50,478 bases of DNA from Candidatus Cloacimonadota bacterium. GTDB lineage: Bacteria; Cloacimonadota; Cloacimonadia; JGIOTU-2. The stretch lies in contig JAFGDR010000064.1 of the NCBI GenBank assembly GCA_016932035.1, positions 1 through 50,478 on the forward strand, read 5' to 3'. Numbering within the stretch: the first letter of the stretch is position 1; every line of letters begins with the position of its first letter. Position numbers and translations under genes: made by a program. Below the pieces are notes generated by a model. The model was not told where the DNA came from. It did not search any database and saw only the letters and a program-made list of their open reading frames with translations. Positions 35,786 through 46,939 of the stretch are shown in pieces.

Positions 35786-36825
35786 AGCGTTTCTCCATAG
35801 AACTTTCTCTTGAAAAGCTTGCTGAAATTGCTCAAGGGAAGTTGATAAAGGTCAGTGACTGCTTATGCAATGCAGTTGCATCGCTTGATGAAGCAGATGC
35901 TCAGACAGTTGTTTTTTTTCAGGATCCCAAATTTGAGAAAGAATTCCAGTCGTCAGAAGCAGGTGTTTTTATTATTCCCGCTGAACTTGATAGAGAAAAT
36001 TTGCCAGACAGGAATTATATACTCAGCCCAAAACCCTATTTTTCTTTTTTGAGGATTGTCGCATTCTTTCTTCACTCAACCCAAAAACCTATCAAAGGAA
36101 GAGACATTCATCCTTCGGCATATATTGATCCTTCAATCAAAATACCGGACAATATTATTGTCGCTGCAAATGTTGTGATCGGGAAGAATGTTGTGCTGGG
36201 CGAATACAATGCCATACAAGAGAATGTTGTCATTAAAGAAGATGTAACAATCGGTGATAGATGTTCTTTCTTTCCCGGTGTGACGATCTACAAAGAGGTT
36301 GTCATAGGCAGCTATGTGAGAATTCATGCTGGAAGTGTTATTGGATCTGACGGATTTGGGTATATCTGGGACGGTTCAAAGCATCAGAAAATTCCGCAGA
36401 TAGGAAGAGTTGTTATTGAAGATGATGTCGAGATCGGAGCAAATGTAACTGTCGACAGAGGTGCGCTGGGTGATACAGTCATCAAAAAGGGATCGAAGAT
36501 AGACAATCTTGTTCAGATCGCTCATAATGTACAAGTTGGAAATTATTCAATACTTTGCTCTCAAGTCGGTATCGCAGGCAGTTCAAAAGTTGGAGATAAC
36601 TGTATATTTGCCGGACAAGTCGGGATTGCAGATCATGTCAATGTTGGAAATAACGTAAAAATCGGTGCTCAATCCGGTGTACCGAATGACATTCCCGATG
36701 ATAAGATCGTACTCGGCTATCCTGCTATGGATGTTGGACTGCAACGGAGGATACTCGCTTCGCTGAAAGAATTACCAGATATGCGAAAATACTTCCATCA
36801 ATTGAAAAAGAAGGAAGAAAAATAA
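35782..36825 (+). CDS. lpxD: UDP-3-O-acylglucosamine N-acyltransferase
   Basis: A 347-residue trimeric acyltransferase of lipid A synthesis that adds the second hydroxyacyl chain to UDP-3-O-acyl-GlcN. The N-terminal uridine-binding domain (residues 1-100) includes [10 protein letters not shown] and [13 protein letters not shown]. From about 105 to 320 the left-handed beta-helix is built of hexapeptide repeats ([42 protein letters not shown]). The catalytic His is His248 in NLVQIAHNV. Standard length. It overlaps skp-like ompH by four bases and lpxC-fabZ by one. Confidence 0.96.
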
Positions 36826-38258
36826 TGTATATACATGAAAATCAACAGACGATCAATGGTTCAATAAGTTATACGGGCATTGGACTTCATACCGGCACGA
36901 TCAGCACGATCACGTTCAAACCTGCCCCGGAAAATACAGGGATCATCTTTCGAAGAACTGATCTTCCCGGAAATCCTGAAATTCCTGCTGATATGCAGCA
37001 TGTCCAAAGCCTGGACAGAGGAACGAATATCGGCATCAAAGAGGCGACTGTCGCAACGATCGAGCATGTACTTTCAGCGATAAAAGGTCTTGAAATTGAT
37101 AATATTATTGTTGAGGTTGATGGAGAAGAAATACCCGTTGCTGATGGAAGTGCGATTGAATTTGTCAAAGCATTGAAAAAATGCGGCATCGTCGAACAAA
37201 ATGCAGAACGTAAATATCTTGAAATTAAAAAACCCTTATCCTTTTCTGTTCCGGAAAGAAATGTCGATGTCGTTGTAGTTCCCTCCGAGTCTTTGAAGAT
37301 AACCTTCTTTATAGATTTCGATCATCCGAACCTGAAACCTCAATATACTTCAATGGTATCTCTCAAAGATGAATATGAAAAAGGATTTGCATCCGCACGC
37401 ACATTCTGCTTTATAAATGACATCAAACAGCTTCGTGCAGCCGGACTCATCAAAGGCGGTAGTCTGAACAATGCGCTTGTGATCGGTGATGAAAGTCTTT
37501 CAAAGAAAGATCTGGAAGAATTGCAGGTGCTGTTCAATATGAAAGATGAGATCAAGCTGAATGAGTATAAATTGCTTAATGCAACTCCCTTGCGCTATTA
37601 TAATGAATTTGTGAGGCATAAAGTCGTCGATCTGATCGGTGATCTTGCGCTTCTGGGTATATCGGTCAAAGGTCATATTCTTGCAGCACGTTCAGGGCAC
37701 AAAACGAACATCGAGCTGATTAAGAAGATAAAGCAGCAATATGAAAATGAGATATTGCAAGCAAAATATCAGAAGAAAGAAGTAAAAGGTGTTGTATTTG
37801 ACAATGAAGCTATTCAGAGAATTCTTCCTCATCGATATCCATTCCTTCTTGTTGATAAGATCGTAGAGTACAATCCGGGTGATTCAATCGTCGGGATAAA
37901 GAATGTAACAACAAATGAACCCTTTTTCCAGGGACATTTCCCCGGCCATCCCGTTATGCCCGGTGTGCTCATTGTTGAAGCGATGGTTCAAACAGGAGGT
38001 ATTCTCGTTCTTAACGAATGTCCCGATCCACGCGATTTTGTGGCATATTTTCTAGCAATCGATAAGGTGAAGTTTAGGAAACTCGTCCTTCCCGGAGATA
38101 GATTGGAATTCCATATGCGACTTGTTCGGTCACGTTTTGGTGTACATCTTATAGAAGGTAAAGCATATGTTGATGGTCAGTTAGTATGCGAAGGCGAACT
38201 TAAAGCAAAATTAATCAAGAACAATGAGTCAAATAATACATCCAACAGCAATAGTTGA
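36825..38258 (+). CDS. LpxC-FabZ bifunctional fusion
   Basis: A 477-residue fusion. Residues 1-315 are LpxC, the zinc deacetylase that commits UDP-3-O-acyl-GlcNAc to lipid A: catalytic Glu80 with zinc ligand His81 (TIEHVLSAI), then His265 and Asp269 (HKVVDLIGD), and general-acid His292 (RSGHKTN). Residues 325-477 are FabZ, the hydroxyacyl-ACP dehydratase: [12 protein letters not shown], then [11 protein letters not shown] with catalytic His371 and Glu385 ([12 protein letters not shown]). The fusion is typical of Bacteroidota and relatives and ties fatty-acid elongation to lipid A synthesis. The start overlaps the lpxD stop by one base (TAATG), and the last 35 bases overlap lpxA. Confidence 0.96.
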
Positions 38259-41940: not shown

Positions 41941-43698
41941 TTAACGTATCAATAATATCTTCTTGAACACCTCATCTGTTTGATTTATATTGGCTTTGAG
42001 AATGTAAATTCCTGAGGGCATGTTCGTCCCAGTGCTATTTGTGCCATCCCAGTACACAGTAAAGCCGTAATCAGTTGGTTCATGTGTTTCAATGTTTTTG
42101 ATAAACTCACCTTTTATTGAGTAAATGCCAATGTTATCTGGAATAATAATGTGATGTGAATTTTTTCTAGAAAACTCGATAGAGATTAGTGTTGAACTGA
42201 TAATCTTTGTATCAAAAGGATTGGGGAAGTTTACAACAGTATAACCGAATTTTGCAGCGATCTCAGGCAGATCATTGATTGCTGTAAGATCCAGATCAAG
42301 AAGCACGCAAAGTTCGATAGGCTCGATTTCGCCCTGGTTGGTCGTGCCATCATACACAAATCTTCCATGTGACATGTAATGAAGAGCTATGAAAGGTATT
42401 GTCATCGAAGTGCCCTGCAAAGGATTGTGTATCACAGCCATACCCATATTCTGAGTACGTCCGCAGATGATGCAATCTTCCTGACCCCATACAAGTTGCG
42501 GCTCGATGTAGATCGAATCTGAAGGCGGATTCGAGCCTGATGAAACGACGGGAAGCGAAGATATTCTTTCAATAAGTGCCTGGGCGATCTGATGTCCGTC
42601 ATCAATACCGATATCGTGGGTGTAAGGATTATCAAAATCCATATCAAAGTATGCTTCAGCAGTATCGTTCAATCCATCATTATCGTAGTCATTCGGTGTT
42701 GCAAGGGCATGATGAAGTATGTCGAGGGGAGCAAGGATTTTTGAAAGCAAAGCAATATCGATACGGGTTGTATCATCTTCTATGATATATGAAAAAGAAC
42801 CATGGTCCATAAAATGAAGTGCCATATAGGGAATTTCGATCTGCAGATCATGCATCGGGTTATGAACGGTCACATGACCCATATTATAAGCTTCTCCGCA
42901 TATAGGACAATTGTAATATCCATATGTTGGATGTTCGATCACATACAACGAATTTGGAGTAACACCAATAGGAAGACCGTCAATCAGTGTTTTGTAATGT
43001 TGCGCTATGGTGTTTGACTCACCACTCGGAAAAATACCGGTTATCAGCTCTTCGCAGTTTTTCATGTAATCAAAATCATCATCTTCAGGTACGGGAATCC
43101 AATGGTTATCTGCATGAAGCGTTGAAAGAAAACCGAGAGAAAAAAATGCTGCGGCAGCGTAGGGGAGTGCTTTTCTGATGAATGACCTTATTATTTGCTG
43201 GTTCGCATCACCAGATAATGTTTTGTATAATTCCTGACATTCGTCAAAAATTGACCTATAAACCGGGAATAAGGATGGCGAGATGCGACAATCGGGGCAG
43301 ATCCAGTGGAAAAGGAGCTTTTGCTCTTTATCAATATACTTATTGGGTGTGTATCCATTATGAATAAAATTTTCAACACAGCACGAAGGATATCCAAAAA
43401 GAAATCCTTCAATCTTTCTATGTGCTGGTGAAAGTCTTAAAGAAGTGTTATCAAAAGTGCGCAGATATGCATGAATACGATTTGAATTTCTGCTGAAAAT
43501 AAATTCTCTGATCCTATCTCCATTCTCACAATACCGGGCAACGGATTCTGTCTTAAGATCGAACTTTTTCAATACATCATTTTCTTGAGAACTCAACGGC
43601 TTTTCCCAACGACTCAGAGGTTTAACCTTCCGGTGAGTCAGTAATGCCAGAAAGAGGATCTGGAAAAGACGATCATGCAAAAAGTCATCTTTTTTCAT
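41941..43698 (-). CDS. Secreted protein with duplicated CxxC/NMG/HNP module and T9SS-like sorting domain
   Basis: A 585-residue protein of unusual build. Residues 1-175 look cytosolic, with FGYPSCC (101-107, reminiscent of DUF483-type proteins, weak) and HWICPDC (131-137). Residues 172-196 look like a signal peptide placed in mid-protein (basic start, ALPYAAAAFFSLGF core, TLHA-D end). Two copies of one module follow, at about 250-323 and 395-469: C-x2-CG, NMG, HNP, IPxxALHxMxHGxFxY. Between them is a thrombospondin-3-like calcium loop (DYDNDGLND, 337-345). Residues 487-585 are a T9SS type A-like sorting domain (FPNPF, YWDGTN, PSGIYILK, KKILLIR). AGGAGG precedes the ATG. It lies between the M23 peptidase and hflX. 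I do not know the module's function; metal binding by Cys and His is likely. Confidence 0.75.
   Translation of the reverse strand: MKKDDFLHDRLFQILFLALLTHRKVKPLSRWEKPLSSQENDVLKKFDLKTESVARYCENGDRIREFIFSRNSNRIHAYLRTFDNTSLRLSPAHRKIEGFLFGYPSCCVENFIHNGYTPNKYIDKEQKLLFHWICPDCRISPSLFPVYRSIFDECQELYKTLSGDANQQIIRSFIRKALPYAAAAFFSLGFLSTLHADNHWIPVPEDDDFDYMKNCEELITGIFPSGESNTIAQHYKTLIDGLPIGVTPNSLYVIEHPTYGYYNCPICGEAYNMGHVTVHNPMHDLQIEIPYMALHFMDHGSFSYIIEDDTTRIDIALLSKILAPLDILHHALATPNDYDNDGLNDTAEAYFDMDFDNPYTHDIGIDDGHQIAQALIERISSLPVVSSGSNPPSDSIYIEPQLVWGQEDCIICGRTQNMGMAVIHNPLQGTSMTIPFIALHYMSHGRFVYDGTTNQGEIEPIELCVLLDLDLTAINDLPEIAAKFGYTVVNFPNPFDTKIISSTLISIEFSRKNSHHIIIPDNIGIYSIKGEFIKNIETHEPTDYGFTVYWDGTNSTGTNMPSGIYILKANINQTDEVFKKILLIR
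42292..42516 (-). repeat. Second copy of the CxxC/NMG/HNP module
   Basis: Encodes residues 395-469. It shares with the first copy C-x-ICG (Cys409, Cys412), NMG, HNP, IP, ALHxM, HG-x-F-x-Y and an I-x-LxxLL end. The spacing between these positions is identical in both, which shows internal duplication. Confidence 0.8.
42730..42951 (-). repeat. First copy of the CxxC/NMG/HNP module
   Basis: Encodes residues 250-323, with CPICG (Cys264, Cys267), NMG (272-274), HNP (279-281) and IPYMALHFMDHGSFSY (289-304). Conserved Cys and His in both copies are candidate metal ligands. Confidence 0.8.
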
Positions 43699-43776
43699 GT
43701 TACCTCCTGTTTTTGGAGAGTAGTTTTATGACTGTTAAAATTCAAAGTGACCTATTTAAGAAACTCACAACTATCA

Positions 43777-45843
43777 TTATCGTAAAATAATGACCTTTCT
43801 TAAATCTGTGATGTTCTGGCCTTGAACAACTGCAATGAAGTATATGCCGCTTTGTACAGGTGTTCCTTGTTCATCATAACCATTCCAAAAAATTTCTACG
43901 AATCCGTCAAGTGCTTCTTGAAATGATATTTTTCTTACATACTGACCCTTTGAATTATAGATCATTACATATTGTGATTGAGATATTTTTTTACTGGTAA
44001 ATGAAATGCATATATCATCATTGGCAGCAAGATGACACGGATTGGGATGTATTGTTAGTTTTTGATTCTCATGTTGTTCTTCGTCATCGATAGAAACATT
44101 ATCAATTGTGATGCTCATATATGCTGAAGTTTCGTTTAAGGAGCAGTCTCGAGTAATTACTTCGAGAATATACTGTCCGTCAGGGAACTGACTTGTATCA
44201 AGATTTTCATACTGGTCTTGCTCAGTGATCACCGAATCTCCATTTGAGTTTGTGATGATATGATAATACTCCCGGTTGGTATAATCACCGATCGAATAGC
44301 AATATGGATCTCTGGAATATATCGTATATAAGACCATATTATCATACATGCCACTGATATAGGTATCCAAAGGCATATCATAAGCAAATGAGAAACGTTC
44401 ATAGATCGTTGCATTTGGATTTGAGGCTGGGTGGAGTTTGAACATGATATCCCATACATCGACTCGCCAGTTTGCATTTATGATGTCATGACATTTTGCG
44501 ATAATATCTATTTCTCCAATGAGTTCGTCAGGATCAAGATAGGTGCCGCTCTCGGTTCGGAAAGCAAACAGGTCTGATCCATAAGCATTTTCAAAAACAG
44601 GAGGAATTGTATCGAGGACATTCGGCATATCAACGAGAGGATTGTCAGTGGTCCACCAATTACCATACCACGTTGCGCCAGAGCAGGTAATGCGCCCAAA
44701 GTGAATATGAGTAAAATCATAGACAGCCCATGGATAAAGAGTACCAAGAACATCACCAGCTTGAACTGAATCACCTACAATATAAGGGATCGAATTCTGG
44801 TTGAGATGTGCATAGAGATAACCCTCAGACTCTGCTGCAGTATTTTCATTGGAGATACCTATGCGCCAGTATGCTGAACCACCTGTTGTTAAAATTGCTT
44901 TAATGTACCCCGATTTTACTGCATATACGTTTTCATAGTCACTTCCTAAAAAATCAACCCCGGGATGAAGATAGGGAGAGCCGCCATACTGCTGGATCTC
45001 ACCATAGCTGTTGCCGATCGGGAACGGATATGATATCGTTGGATGATTGAGTGGTGCAATGATCGTTTCATGGCTCTTTGTTCGGGATAAAGGAAAATCG
45101 ATGCCATCTAAAGTAACTATCGACGCATTATCGTTGAATCTCTTGAGCGAAAAGTGAAATCCTTCTGCAATTTCTGATCTTTCAACAAAATATAACTCTC
45201 CATCTTGTATATGGATTTCAAACAACGTATTGGTCGTAGAATACATTGATACAAGATATTTTTCACGTATAGTGTAGATATGATGTCTTGTTCTAATGAG
45301 AGGTTTATCATTTAAGAAGTGTGTAGAAAGTGGATACTCATCCATCTGTATAGAAATGTCTTTGTAGTTGAAACAATCATCAGCATCATCAAAATAAGCT
45401 GGGTTACCCTCATTGTCTATGGCAAAAACAACTGAACCTGCAAAGCGTTCAGCCTGGGAAGCATTGTCATCAAAAACAACAAGATCTTTTCCATCAAAGA
45501 AAGCAAAATACTGCTTATTTTCTGAAAGTATTAGATTAATGATTTTCTTATAAGATTCCTTGAACAGAAGCATGCCATCATTTTTATAGAGTCTCAGAAC
45601 TGAGGGCACGTTATCCTCAAGAGTTATCATTGTGAGGTAACCGGAAGCTGTTCTGAACAATGAATTCCCTTCGCATGTATGACTGTCACACCTGACCATA
45701 TATATTCCATTATCTAAATAATAATTTTCAATCTCTGAATCATCATCCTGAACAATGTGTTCGAATTCATTGAGATGCAATGACCAACAAAAAGATGTTA
45801 TCATAAGAAGAATGAATAAAATAAAGAAAATCTTTTCTTTCAT
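43777..45843 (-). CDS. Secreted M23 metallopeptidase with T9SS-like sorting domain
   Basis: About 688 residues from the ATG at 45841-45843, chosen for its GGAG and signal peptide (MKEKIFFILFILLMITSFCWS); an upstream in-frame ATG would add 42 unlike residues and overlap kdsD. The N-terminal 240 residues are beta-rich, perhaps a propeller. The LytM/M23 peptidase domain follows with its full zinc site: HPGVD (His293, Asp297), YAHLN (His346) and HIHFG (His379, His381). So it should cut peptidoglycan cross-bridges or other Gly-rich peptides. A beta domain then leads to a C-terminal sorting domain (HPNPCHL, FWNGYDEQGTPVQSGIYF, RKVIILR). It is divergent from kdsD and upstream of the Cys/His-rich secreted protein. 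Confidence 0.88.
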   Translation of the reverse strand: MKEKIFFILFILLMITSFCWSLHLNEFEHIVQDDDSEIENYYLDNGIYMVRCDSHTCEGNSLFRTASGYLTMITLEDNVPSVLRLYKNDGMLLFKESYKKIINLILSENKQYFAFFDGKDLVVFDDNASQAERFAGSVVFAIDNEGNPAYFDDADDCFNYKDISIQMDEYPLSTHFLNDKPLIRTRHHIYTIREKYLVSMYSTTNTLFEIHIQDGELYFVERSEIAEGFHFSLKRFNDNASIVTLDGIDFPLSRTKSHETIIAPLNHPTISYPFPIGNSYGEIQQYGGSPYLHPGVDFLGSDYENVYAVKSGYIKAILTTGGSAYWRIGISNENTAAESEGYLYAHLNQNSIPYIVGDSVQAGDVLGTLYPWAVYDFTHIHFGRITCSGATWYGNWWTTDNPLVDMPNVLDTIPPVFENAYGSDLFAFRTESGTYLDPDELIGEIDIIAKCHDIINANWRVDVWDIMFKLHPASNPNATIYERFSFAYDMPLDTYISGMYDNMVLYTIYSRDPYCYSIGDYTNREYYHIITNSNGDSVITEQDQYENLDTSQFPDGQYILEVITRDCSLNETSAYMSITIDNVSIDDEEQHENQKLTIHPNPCHLAANDDICISFTSKKISQSQYVMIYNSKGQYVRKISFQEALDGFVEIFWNGYDEQGTPVQSGIYFIAVVQGQNITDLRKVIILR

Positions 45844-45918
45844 CAATAAACTCCAATAGATTATGCATTGAATCGGTATGCCGTCGTGATGTGTGTCAAG
45901 AGAAAAGTGCTGCAAAAT

Positions 45919-45949
45919 TTGACGTTTAAATTCATGTGGAATAGCTCTG
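45919..45949 (+). promoter_or_regulatory. Possible kdsD promoter
   Basis: TTGACG (45919-45924) is followed 17 bases later by TAGCTCTG (45942-45949), which is one base off the Bacteroidota-type TAnnTTTG box and weak as a sigma70 -10 box. The kdsD ATG is at 45968 with AGAGG. Confidence 0.35.
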
Positions 45950-45967
45950 AACAAATAAGAGGTTCTC

Positions 45968-46939
45968 ATGAAAAAACAGCAAGAGATTAAAGATATTTTA
46001 CATAAAGAAGCTCAGGCAGTAAGAGTCATAGCTGATAAGGTTGATTATACTGCCGACAGAGCACTGGAACTGATCCTTCATTGTAAAGGAAAGATTGTCA
46101 TTACTGGAATGGGTAAAACAGGTATAATTGGAAGAAAGATCTCTGCCACGTTTGCAAGTACCGGAACACCATCCATCTTTCTCCATCCGGCAGAAGCAAT
46201 TCATGGCGATCTTGGTATGGTTGATGAAAAAGATGTTGTCATGATCATTTCAAATAGCGGTGAAACGTCTGAACTAGTCGAGATCATACCTTATTTTAAG
46301 AACAAAAATATACCTGTGATCTCACTAACGGGCAATACTCATTCGACAACTGCGAAGATGAGTGATGTGGTCATTGATATCGGTGTGCCAAAGGAATTCG
46401 AACCTCTAGGACTCGTCCCTATGGCAAGTACGACAACTGCATTGGCAATGGGAAATGCGCTTGCAACGATCATTTTGCAGGAGAAGAAATTCTGTCAGGA
46501 GGATTATGCATTGCTTCACCCGGGCGGTTCGATCGGAAAACGTCTTCTGCTTGCAGTAAATGATCTTATGCATACAGGAGGAGAGAACCCGGTCATTCAA
46601 GAAAGTGCAACACTCAAAGAAGCCATACTTATTATGACATCGAAGGGATTGGGTTGCGTAAGTATTATTGATAAGTATGGAAAACTGACTGGAATTATTA
46701 CTGATGGTGATCTGCGTAGGATCTTTCAGAACTTTGAAAGCCCGTTTCATGAAAAAGTTCAGCTTCTCATGACCAAAAATCCAAAATCGATTACACCTGA
46801 AACATCGGGCATCAAAGCTCTTGAGACTATGGAAACTTATTCTATAACCATGATACCTGTGGTTGACGAAGAACATAAACCAATCGCTATGCTTCACATG
46901 CACGATCTTGTTCGGGCAGGCATTGTAACAGAACATTAG
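45968..46939 (+). CDS. kdsD: Arabinose-5-phosphate isomerase (KdsD/KpsF)
   Basis: A 323-residue cytosolic isomerase that turns ribulose-5-phosphate into arabinose-5-phosphate, the precursor of Kdo in the LPS core. The SIS domain (residues 30-180) has GMGKTGIIGRKISATFASTGTPS, HPAEAIHGDLGMV and ISNSGETSEL; catalytic-region His80 is in the HGDLG motif. LHPGGSIGKRLL (near 183) precedes two CBS domains (about 205-260 and 270-323). The length matches E. coli KdsD (328). It begins a plus-strand pair with argF; a TTGACG-based promoter may serve both. Confidence 0.95.
   Translation: MKKQQEIKDILHKEAQAVRVIADKVDYTADRALELILHCKGKIVITGMGKTGIIGRKISATFASTGTPSIFLHPAEAIHGDLGMVDEKDVVMIISNSGETSELVEIIPYFKNKNIPVISLTGNTHSTTAKMSDVVIDIGVPKEFEPLGLVPMASTTTALAMGNALATIILQEKKFCQEDYALLHPGGSIGKRLLLAVNDLMHTGGENPVIQESATLKEAILIMTSKGLGCVSIIDKYGKLTGIITDGDLRRIFQNFESPFHEKVQLLMTKNPKSITPETSGIKALETMETYSITMIPVVDEEHKPIAMLHMHDLVRAGIVTEH

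Follow-up and report, generated by a model that had tools for sequence, protein, structure and literature searches.

What kind of protein carries two copies of a Cys- and His-containing module, and what do the module and the rest of the protein do? This question is raised by an ORF of 585 aa (41941-43698, minus strand) in the window, by which we mean the whole stretch of 50,478 nucleotides analysed here. The host is an uncultured sediment bacterium of Cloacimonadota. A sequence-only reading of this DNA had suggested a possible new extracellular module for metal binding or redox chemistry, matched to no named family, with a calcium-loop-like linker between its two copies. Beyond the features noted there, the protein possesses a 160-aa N-terminal cytosolic-type domain (hereafter, N-domain) and an internal signal sequence. 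Because AGGAGG precedes its ATG, the start codon that includes the N-domain is supported. Orthologues are full length with both copies in 13 Cloacimonadota genomes; in a 14th, the gene is split over two contigs. The features are as follows.

41941..43698, minus strand: whole gene, encoding N-domain, internal signal peptide, two repeats and a C-terminal secretion-type domain (full-length orthologues and alignment)
43703..43708, minus strand: Shine-Dalgarno sequence AGGAGG, 4 nt before the ATG (sequence)
43225..43680, minus strand: N-terminal DUF483-like domain, aa 7-158; a gene of its own in Planctomycetota (profile matches and model)
43378..43383, minus strand: Cys106-Cys107 (GYPxCC), invariant (N-domain alignment)
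43288..43299, minus strand: Cys134-x2-Cys137 (FHWxCxxC), invariant (N-domain alignment)
43111..43176, minus strand: internal signal peptide RKALPYAAAAFFSLGFLSTLHA, aa 175-196, predicted to be cleaved immediately before repeat 1 (sequence; in Zixibacteria L074, a lipobox occupies this position)
42733..43104, minus strand: repeat 1, aa 199-322, shortened calcium-loop half and Cys/His module (repeat profile)
42898..42909, minus strand: C264-x2-C267 of repeat 1 (alignment)
42802..42816, minus strand: H295-x3-H299 of repeat 1 (alignment)
42298..42711, minus strand: repeat 2, aa 330-467, TSP3/EF-hand-like loop DYDNDGLNDTAE and Cys/His module (repeat profile; model pLDDT 96.1)
42463..42474, minus strand: C409-x2-C412 of repeat 2 (alignment)
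42367..42381, minus strand: H440-x3-H444 of repeat 2 (alignment)
41944..42237, minus strand: C-terminal FlgD_ig / type IX sorting-like domain, aa 488-585 (family scores below cut-off; weak structural matches)
43777-45969, minus strand: M23 peptidase-like protein that carries a type IX sorting tail; its gene lies 78 bp upstream of the target

The duplication itself is confirmed. Residues 250-323 and 395-469 align over 63 aa with 41% identity (pairwise E 2e-18), far beyond chance, and both copies contain Cys-x2-Cys-Gly, Asn-Met-Gly, Asn-Pro and LHxMxHGxF at equal spacing. The calcium-loop-like stretch had been taken as a linker; however, it belongs to the repeat because the true unit is larger (~135 aa) and includes the loop. 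The unit starts at an invariant His, and the supposed linker makes up the first half of repeat 2. A shortened calcium loop is present in repeat 1 as well (DDDFDYMKNCEE, from aa 205 on).

With a pattern scan of a single genome for each prokaryotic species, we obtained 53 loci, distributed among Cloacimonadota, WOR-3/Stahlbacteria, Zixibacteria, KSB1, Latescibacterota, Krumholzibacteriota, Poribacteria, Verrucomicrobiota, Planctomycetota and Hydrogenedentes. The record titles of all 53 loci are metagenome assemblies, and the repeat family was seen only in uncultured genomes. By iterated profile search in the scan loci and orthologues, we collected 147 repeats (1-5 per protein), and conservation was computed on the 118 distinct repeats with at least 110 residues. 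From its N-terminus, the unit consists of the invariant His and DxDxDxLxxxEE; most copies then have another Asp-rich stretch, and the Cys/His module follows. H1, D10, C79, C82, H110, G115 and L137 are present in 100% of the distinct repeats; thus, the invariance of H1 equals that of the Cys pair. D8, D12 and E19 are conserved at 97-99%, and H114 at 98% (it is once Cys and once Tyr). The HNP motif of the sequence-only reading survived in part: N (92%) and P (86%) are conserved, whereas the His is found in only 21% of the wider family and is ruled out as a metal ligand. A 1294-aa Hydrogenedentes protein (L082:3625-7506) possesses two divergent repeats and a Big_2 domain in a genome with no N-domain.

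The repeat is a new domain family, which is absent as such from Pfam and NCBIfam, and our literature search found no paper on it. Its calcium half is probably related to bacterial TSP3 repeats. TSP3_bac (PF18884) matches 16 of 79 members (best E 5e-8), with no match for copy 2 of the window, and the TSP3-rich CglD and MtsD models match 39 and 10 members, respectively. Since the Asp/Glu ligands are kept at 97-100%, this half may well bind calcium. CglD and MtsD of myxobacteria and TSP3_bac proteins likewise carry DxDxDGLxxxEE calcium-type loops in secreted proteins; in our family, however, every loop comes with a Cys2His2 module that lies outside those models. For this module half, no significant family was found in Pfam or NCBIfam. 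Comparison of the repeat with PDB sequence profiles gave no significant match; the best ones, ribosomal L43/L37ae zinc ribbons, were at chance level (E 0.025) and were rejected.

The fold was modelled from a single repeat with AlphaFold2 (79 alignment rows; pLDDT 96.1). In the model, strands surround the CxxC, followed by a hairpin and a helix with H-x3-H, the last His being located just past the helix. This order of knuckle, hairpin and helix is presumably that of a treble-clef zinc site, and the conserved residues C79, C82, H110 and H114 form a Cys2His2 set in the treble-clef order. Foldseek against the PDB returned nothing below E 0.16, and the best match in a viral structure library was to uncharacterised giant-virus proteins (E 0.02, TM 0.34). 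Treble-clef and zinc-knuckle families share the element order, and a few members match zf-Tbcl_FmdE marginally (E 0.02-0.03); they differ from our repeat, which has no significant sequence or fold match to them and is extracellular and tandem. Thus, the description of an unnamed extracellular module holds, and the conservation of both Cys and both His argues well for metal binding. From the sequence pattern, each repeat probably binds one structural zinc via C-x2-C and H-x3-H.

Two other uses of these residues were considered. A CxxC in an exported protein might be a redox-active pair, and the sequence-only reading had offered a redox function as its second option. However, the C-x-I-C-G knuckle is always accompanied by the invariant and the 98% conserved His (C-x2-C...H-x3-H), this arrangement is kept in tandem in every copy, and no thioredoxin-like match was obtained in Pfam, NCBIfam or the fold search. 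Because there is no redox-family match and two His are paired with the Cys, we reject the redox reading, which we regard as very unlikely. Alternatively, the repeats might act as extracellular scavengers or buffers of zinc or a different metal, while the N-domain senses or regulates metal inside. The full Cys2His2 set in every repeat, the variable copy number and the four invariant Cys of the N-domain are in line with this idea. On the other hand, the spacing of the ligands is typical of structural zinc, and no metal transporters or regulators were recognised by eye beside the gene in unrelated loci. We consider metal buffering to be improbable.

The N-domain (aa 7-158) is well modelled by structure prediction, and its Cys pairs at 106, 107 and at 134, 137 are invariant. 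DUF483 (PF04467) is matched by 20 of the 28 N-domains (best E 1.2e-4); the N-domain of the window scores 16.7 bits (E 0.0075), which does not reach the gathering cut-off of 25 bits. The two families are joined by a standalone DUF483 protein (L131:2178-2795; genome G683, of the same class as G128): our N-domain profile matches it with E 3e-5, and it scores 29.2 bits to DUF483, above the cut-off. Judged from these profile matches through an accepted member, the N-domain is a distant relative of DUF483, and it is absent as such from Pfam and NCBIfam. The shared part is the GxLFGYPxCC core. In contrast to DUF483, the N-domain has FHWxCxxC and KPLSRWE motifs of its own, and its association is with an exported repeat protein, not with radical SAM genes. 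We know of no function for DUF483.

DUF483 has been tied to radical SAM and methyltransferase proteins: rSAM-DUF483 loci were described in Thermus phages, and fusions with rSAM or methyltransferase are listed in InterPro (PMC11437467). Accordingly, the N-domain could be a post-translational modification domain or a modification adaptor that acts on the repeats before export. In keeping with this reading, Cloacimonadota genome G117 encodes a radical SAM protein whose C-terminus is a DUF483-like domain. However, no radical SAM or methyltransferase gene is shared beside the pair across the loci that we read by eye, and the N-domain itself gave no enzyme-like match. We consider a modification role of this kind to be improbable. 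The G117 protein is encoded at L130:543-2291, and no repeat was found in that genome.

How are the N-domain and the repeats arranged relative to the membrane? The N-domain and repeat 1 of the fused proteins are connected by a basic, hydrophobic segment, which mostly ends with A/D-x-H, where the slash marks the cleavage-like site; in the window, the end of the segment is STLHA/DNHW. A Zixibacteria protein with one repeat (L074:1491-2486) has a lipobox, LLLTGC, after the N-domain, at the segment end, implying that this form would be a lipoprotein made with a cytosolic head. When repeats and N-domain are encoded separately, the repeat gene opens with a ~50-aa leader, MRRLRRAxxR...RRAVAAGTAAAITLGAG...KALA, which ends at the same place. 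From these features, we infer that the segment is a cleavable signal peptide which parts the N-domain from the exported repeats, so that the products would be those of the two-gene form. An n-region of ~170 residues ahead of a cleaved signal peptide is unusual.

The C-terminal tail of the window protein scores 12.4 of 23 bits and 13.7 of 27 bits against the sorting-domain models TIGR04183 and PF18962, respectively, both below the cut-offs. Its fold matches PorZ, T9SS translocon and RemA-CTD entries with probabilities of 0.99-1.00 and weak E values (0.02-0.13), and also FlgD. Thus, the Ig-like tail resembles known type IX tails (Por_Secre_tail, FlgD_ig) through weak structural matches and differs from them in falling below the curated cut-offs. 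The genome of the window contains 103 matches to the tail model TIGR04183. Type IX secretion of the repeat protein in the window host is probable. Known type IX cargo with such tails loses its signal peptide before export.

The relation between the fused and the split form was examined on a tree of N-domains. The N-domain is fused ahead of the repeats in 28 rows of the tree, which come from loci outside Planctomycetota, and is separate in 17. These states are parted by one change (SH-aLRT 95). In Planctomycetota, the N-domain has a gene of its own with ~165 codons. In each of the 18 paired loci, this gene immediately follows the repeat gene on the same strand, with 50-84 bp between the repeat stop codon and the point where the N-domain profile match begins. 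Other neighbours of the pair vary among the loci read. Because the N-domain of Planctomycetota is separate and the tree has a single change, physical linkage of the N-domain and the repeats is not required.

These results bear on a further alternative, in which the fused protein is a one-piece membrane receptor: the anchor would stay uncleaved, the repeats would sense a metal or ligand outside, and the cytosolic Cys4 domain would relay the signal. Such a protein would look like the fused form of several phyla, with its cytosolic-type head, one hydrophobic segment and repeats outside. However, the hydrophobic segment ends in a lipobox or A/D cleavage-like sites, the C-terminal sorting-like domain is of the type IX cargo kind, and the separate Planctomycetota N-domain has a product of only ~165 aa, with one change on the tree accounting for both states. 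We consider the receptor to be unlikely.

The N-domain and the repeats also occur together across genomes, almost without exception. In Cloacimonadota, 17 of 17 repeat genomes possess the N-domain; one further genome, G117, has only the weak match of the radical SAM protein. For Planctomycetota, we used a module-only profile because the full repeat profile gave ~100 extra genomes, in which the listed matches cover the TSP3 half only. Among 298 genomes of the class of G128, eight have repeats and all eight have the N-domain; conversely, repeats were found in 8 of 9 genomes with a strong N-domain match. Across phyla, 16 of 17 repeat genomes contain exactly one N-domain. The hypergeometric p values for co-occurrence are ~6e-15 and ~6e-20, as naive estimates that ignore shared ancestry. 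There are exceptions. G672 (Planctomycetota) has an N-domain gene (G672:C117:34338-34808), no repeat protein in the surrounding 6.5 kb and no module match genome-wide; its repeat partner was possibly lost or unassembled. G133 (Hydrogenedentes) has repeats without an N-domain. G128 encodes a second repeat protein (L132, ORF of 438 aa) with the same basic leader and no adjoining N-domain gene, and one N-domain may serve two repeat proteins in this genome. In the N-domain tree, the copies of L034, L035 and L044, whose label is WOR-3/Stahlbacteria, fall within the Cloacimonadota clade; this placement may reflect gene transfer or misbinned contigs.

Because Planctomycetota make the same two products from adjacent genes, we regard the N-domain as a dedicated cytosolic partner of the repeats. 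The reading that we favour, with a confidence just short of even, is that the gene encodes a calcium- and zinc-stabilised secreted repeat protein together with this partner, the two being fused in most phyla and freed from each other by signal peptidase. In each ~135-aa repeat, calcium would be bound by the TSP3/EF-hand-like Asp loop, while C-x2-C and H-x3-H would hold one structural zinc, and the repeats would form a rigid, protease-resistant surface or extracellular element. The repeat protein would be made with the 160-aa DUF483-like Cys4 domain ahead of its signal sequence. Signal peptidase would split the product: the repeats would exit by Sec (in the window host, probably on to type IX export), and the N-domain would stay inside. 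In Planctomycetota, two adjacent genes would yield the same pair. The N-domain would most likely handle, pilot or modify the repeat protein before export. An export role is one of several partner roles compatible with co-occurrence, and it fits the position of the N-domain right before the signal sequence. More tentatively, we propose that the DUF483-like metal domain is an intracellular maturation or export factor for the calcium/zinc repeats, mostly made as a cleavable 170-residue head, so that one gene gives both cargo and partner.

The repeat family defined here was previously unnamed. It extends across about ten phyla, and all the genomes in which we saw it are uncultured. Known kinds include the calcium half, zinc knuckles and type IX tails; the combination of repeat and N-domain was not found in our literature search, and the two-part organisation is moderately novel. 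Fusion and gene neighbourhood both point to one exported partner and give a DUF483-like domain a first strong link to a function. If the proposed cleavage occurs, placing a signal peptide after a cytosolic domain of 170 residues would yield a protein and its helper in equal amounts, by an uncommon route. In Planctomycetota, where the two genes are split, the role of the N-domain is directly testable.

Inference of an operon function from the genes flanking the target was dropped. Same-genus loci that we read (L045, L046 and L048) preserve the order M23 peptidase-like gene, target and HflX, and loci elsewhere do not; therefore, these neighbours are uninformative on function. Elsewhere in the window, the product of 36825-38258 (plus strand) resembles, by its sequence, a fused LpxC/FabZ protein in an lpxD-lpxC/fabZ-lpxA cluster.
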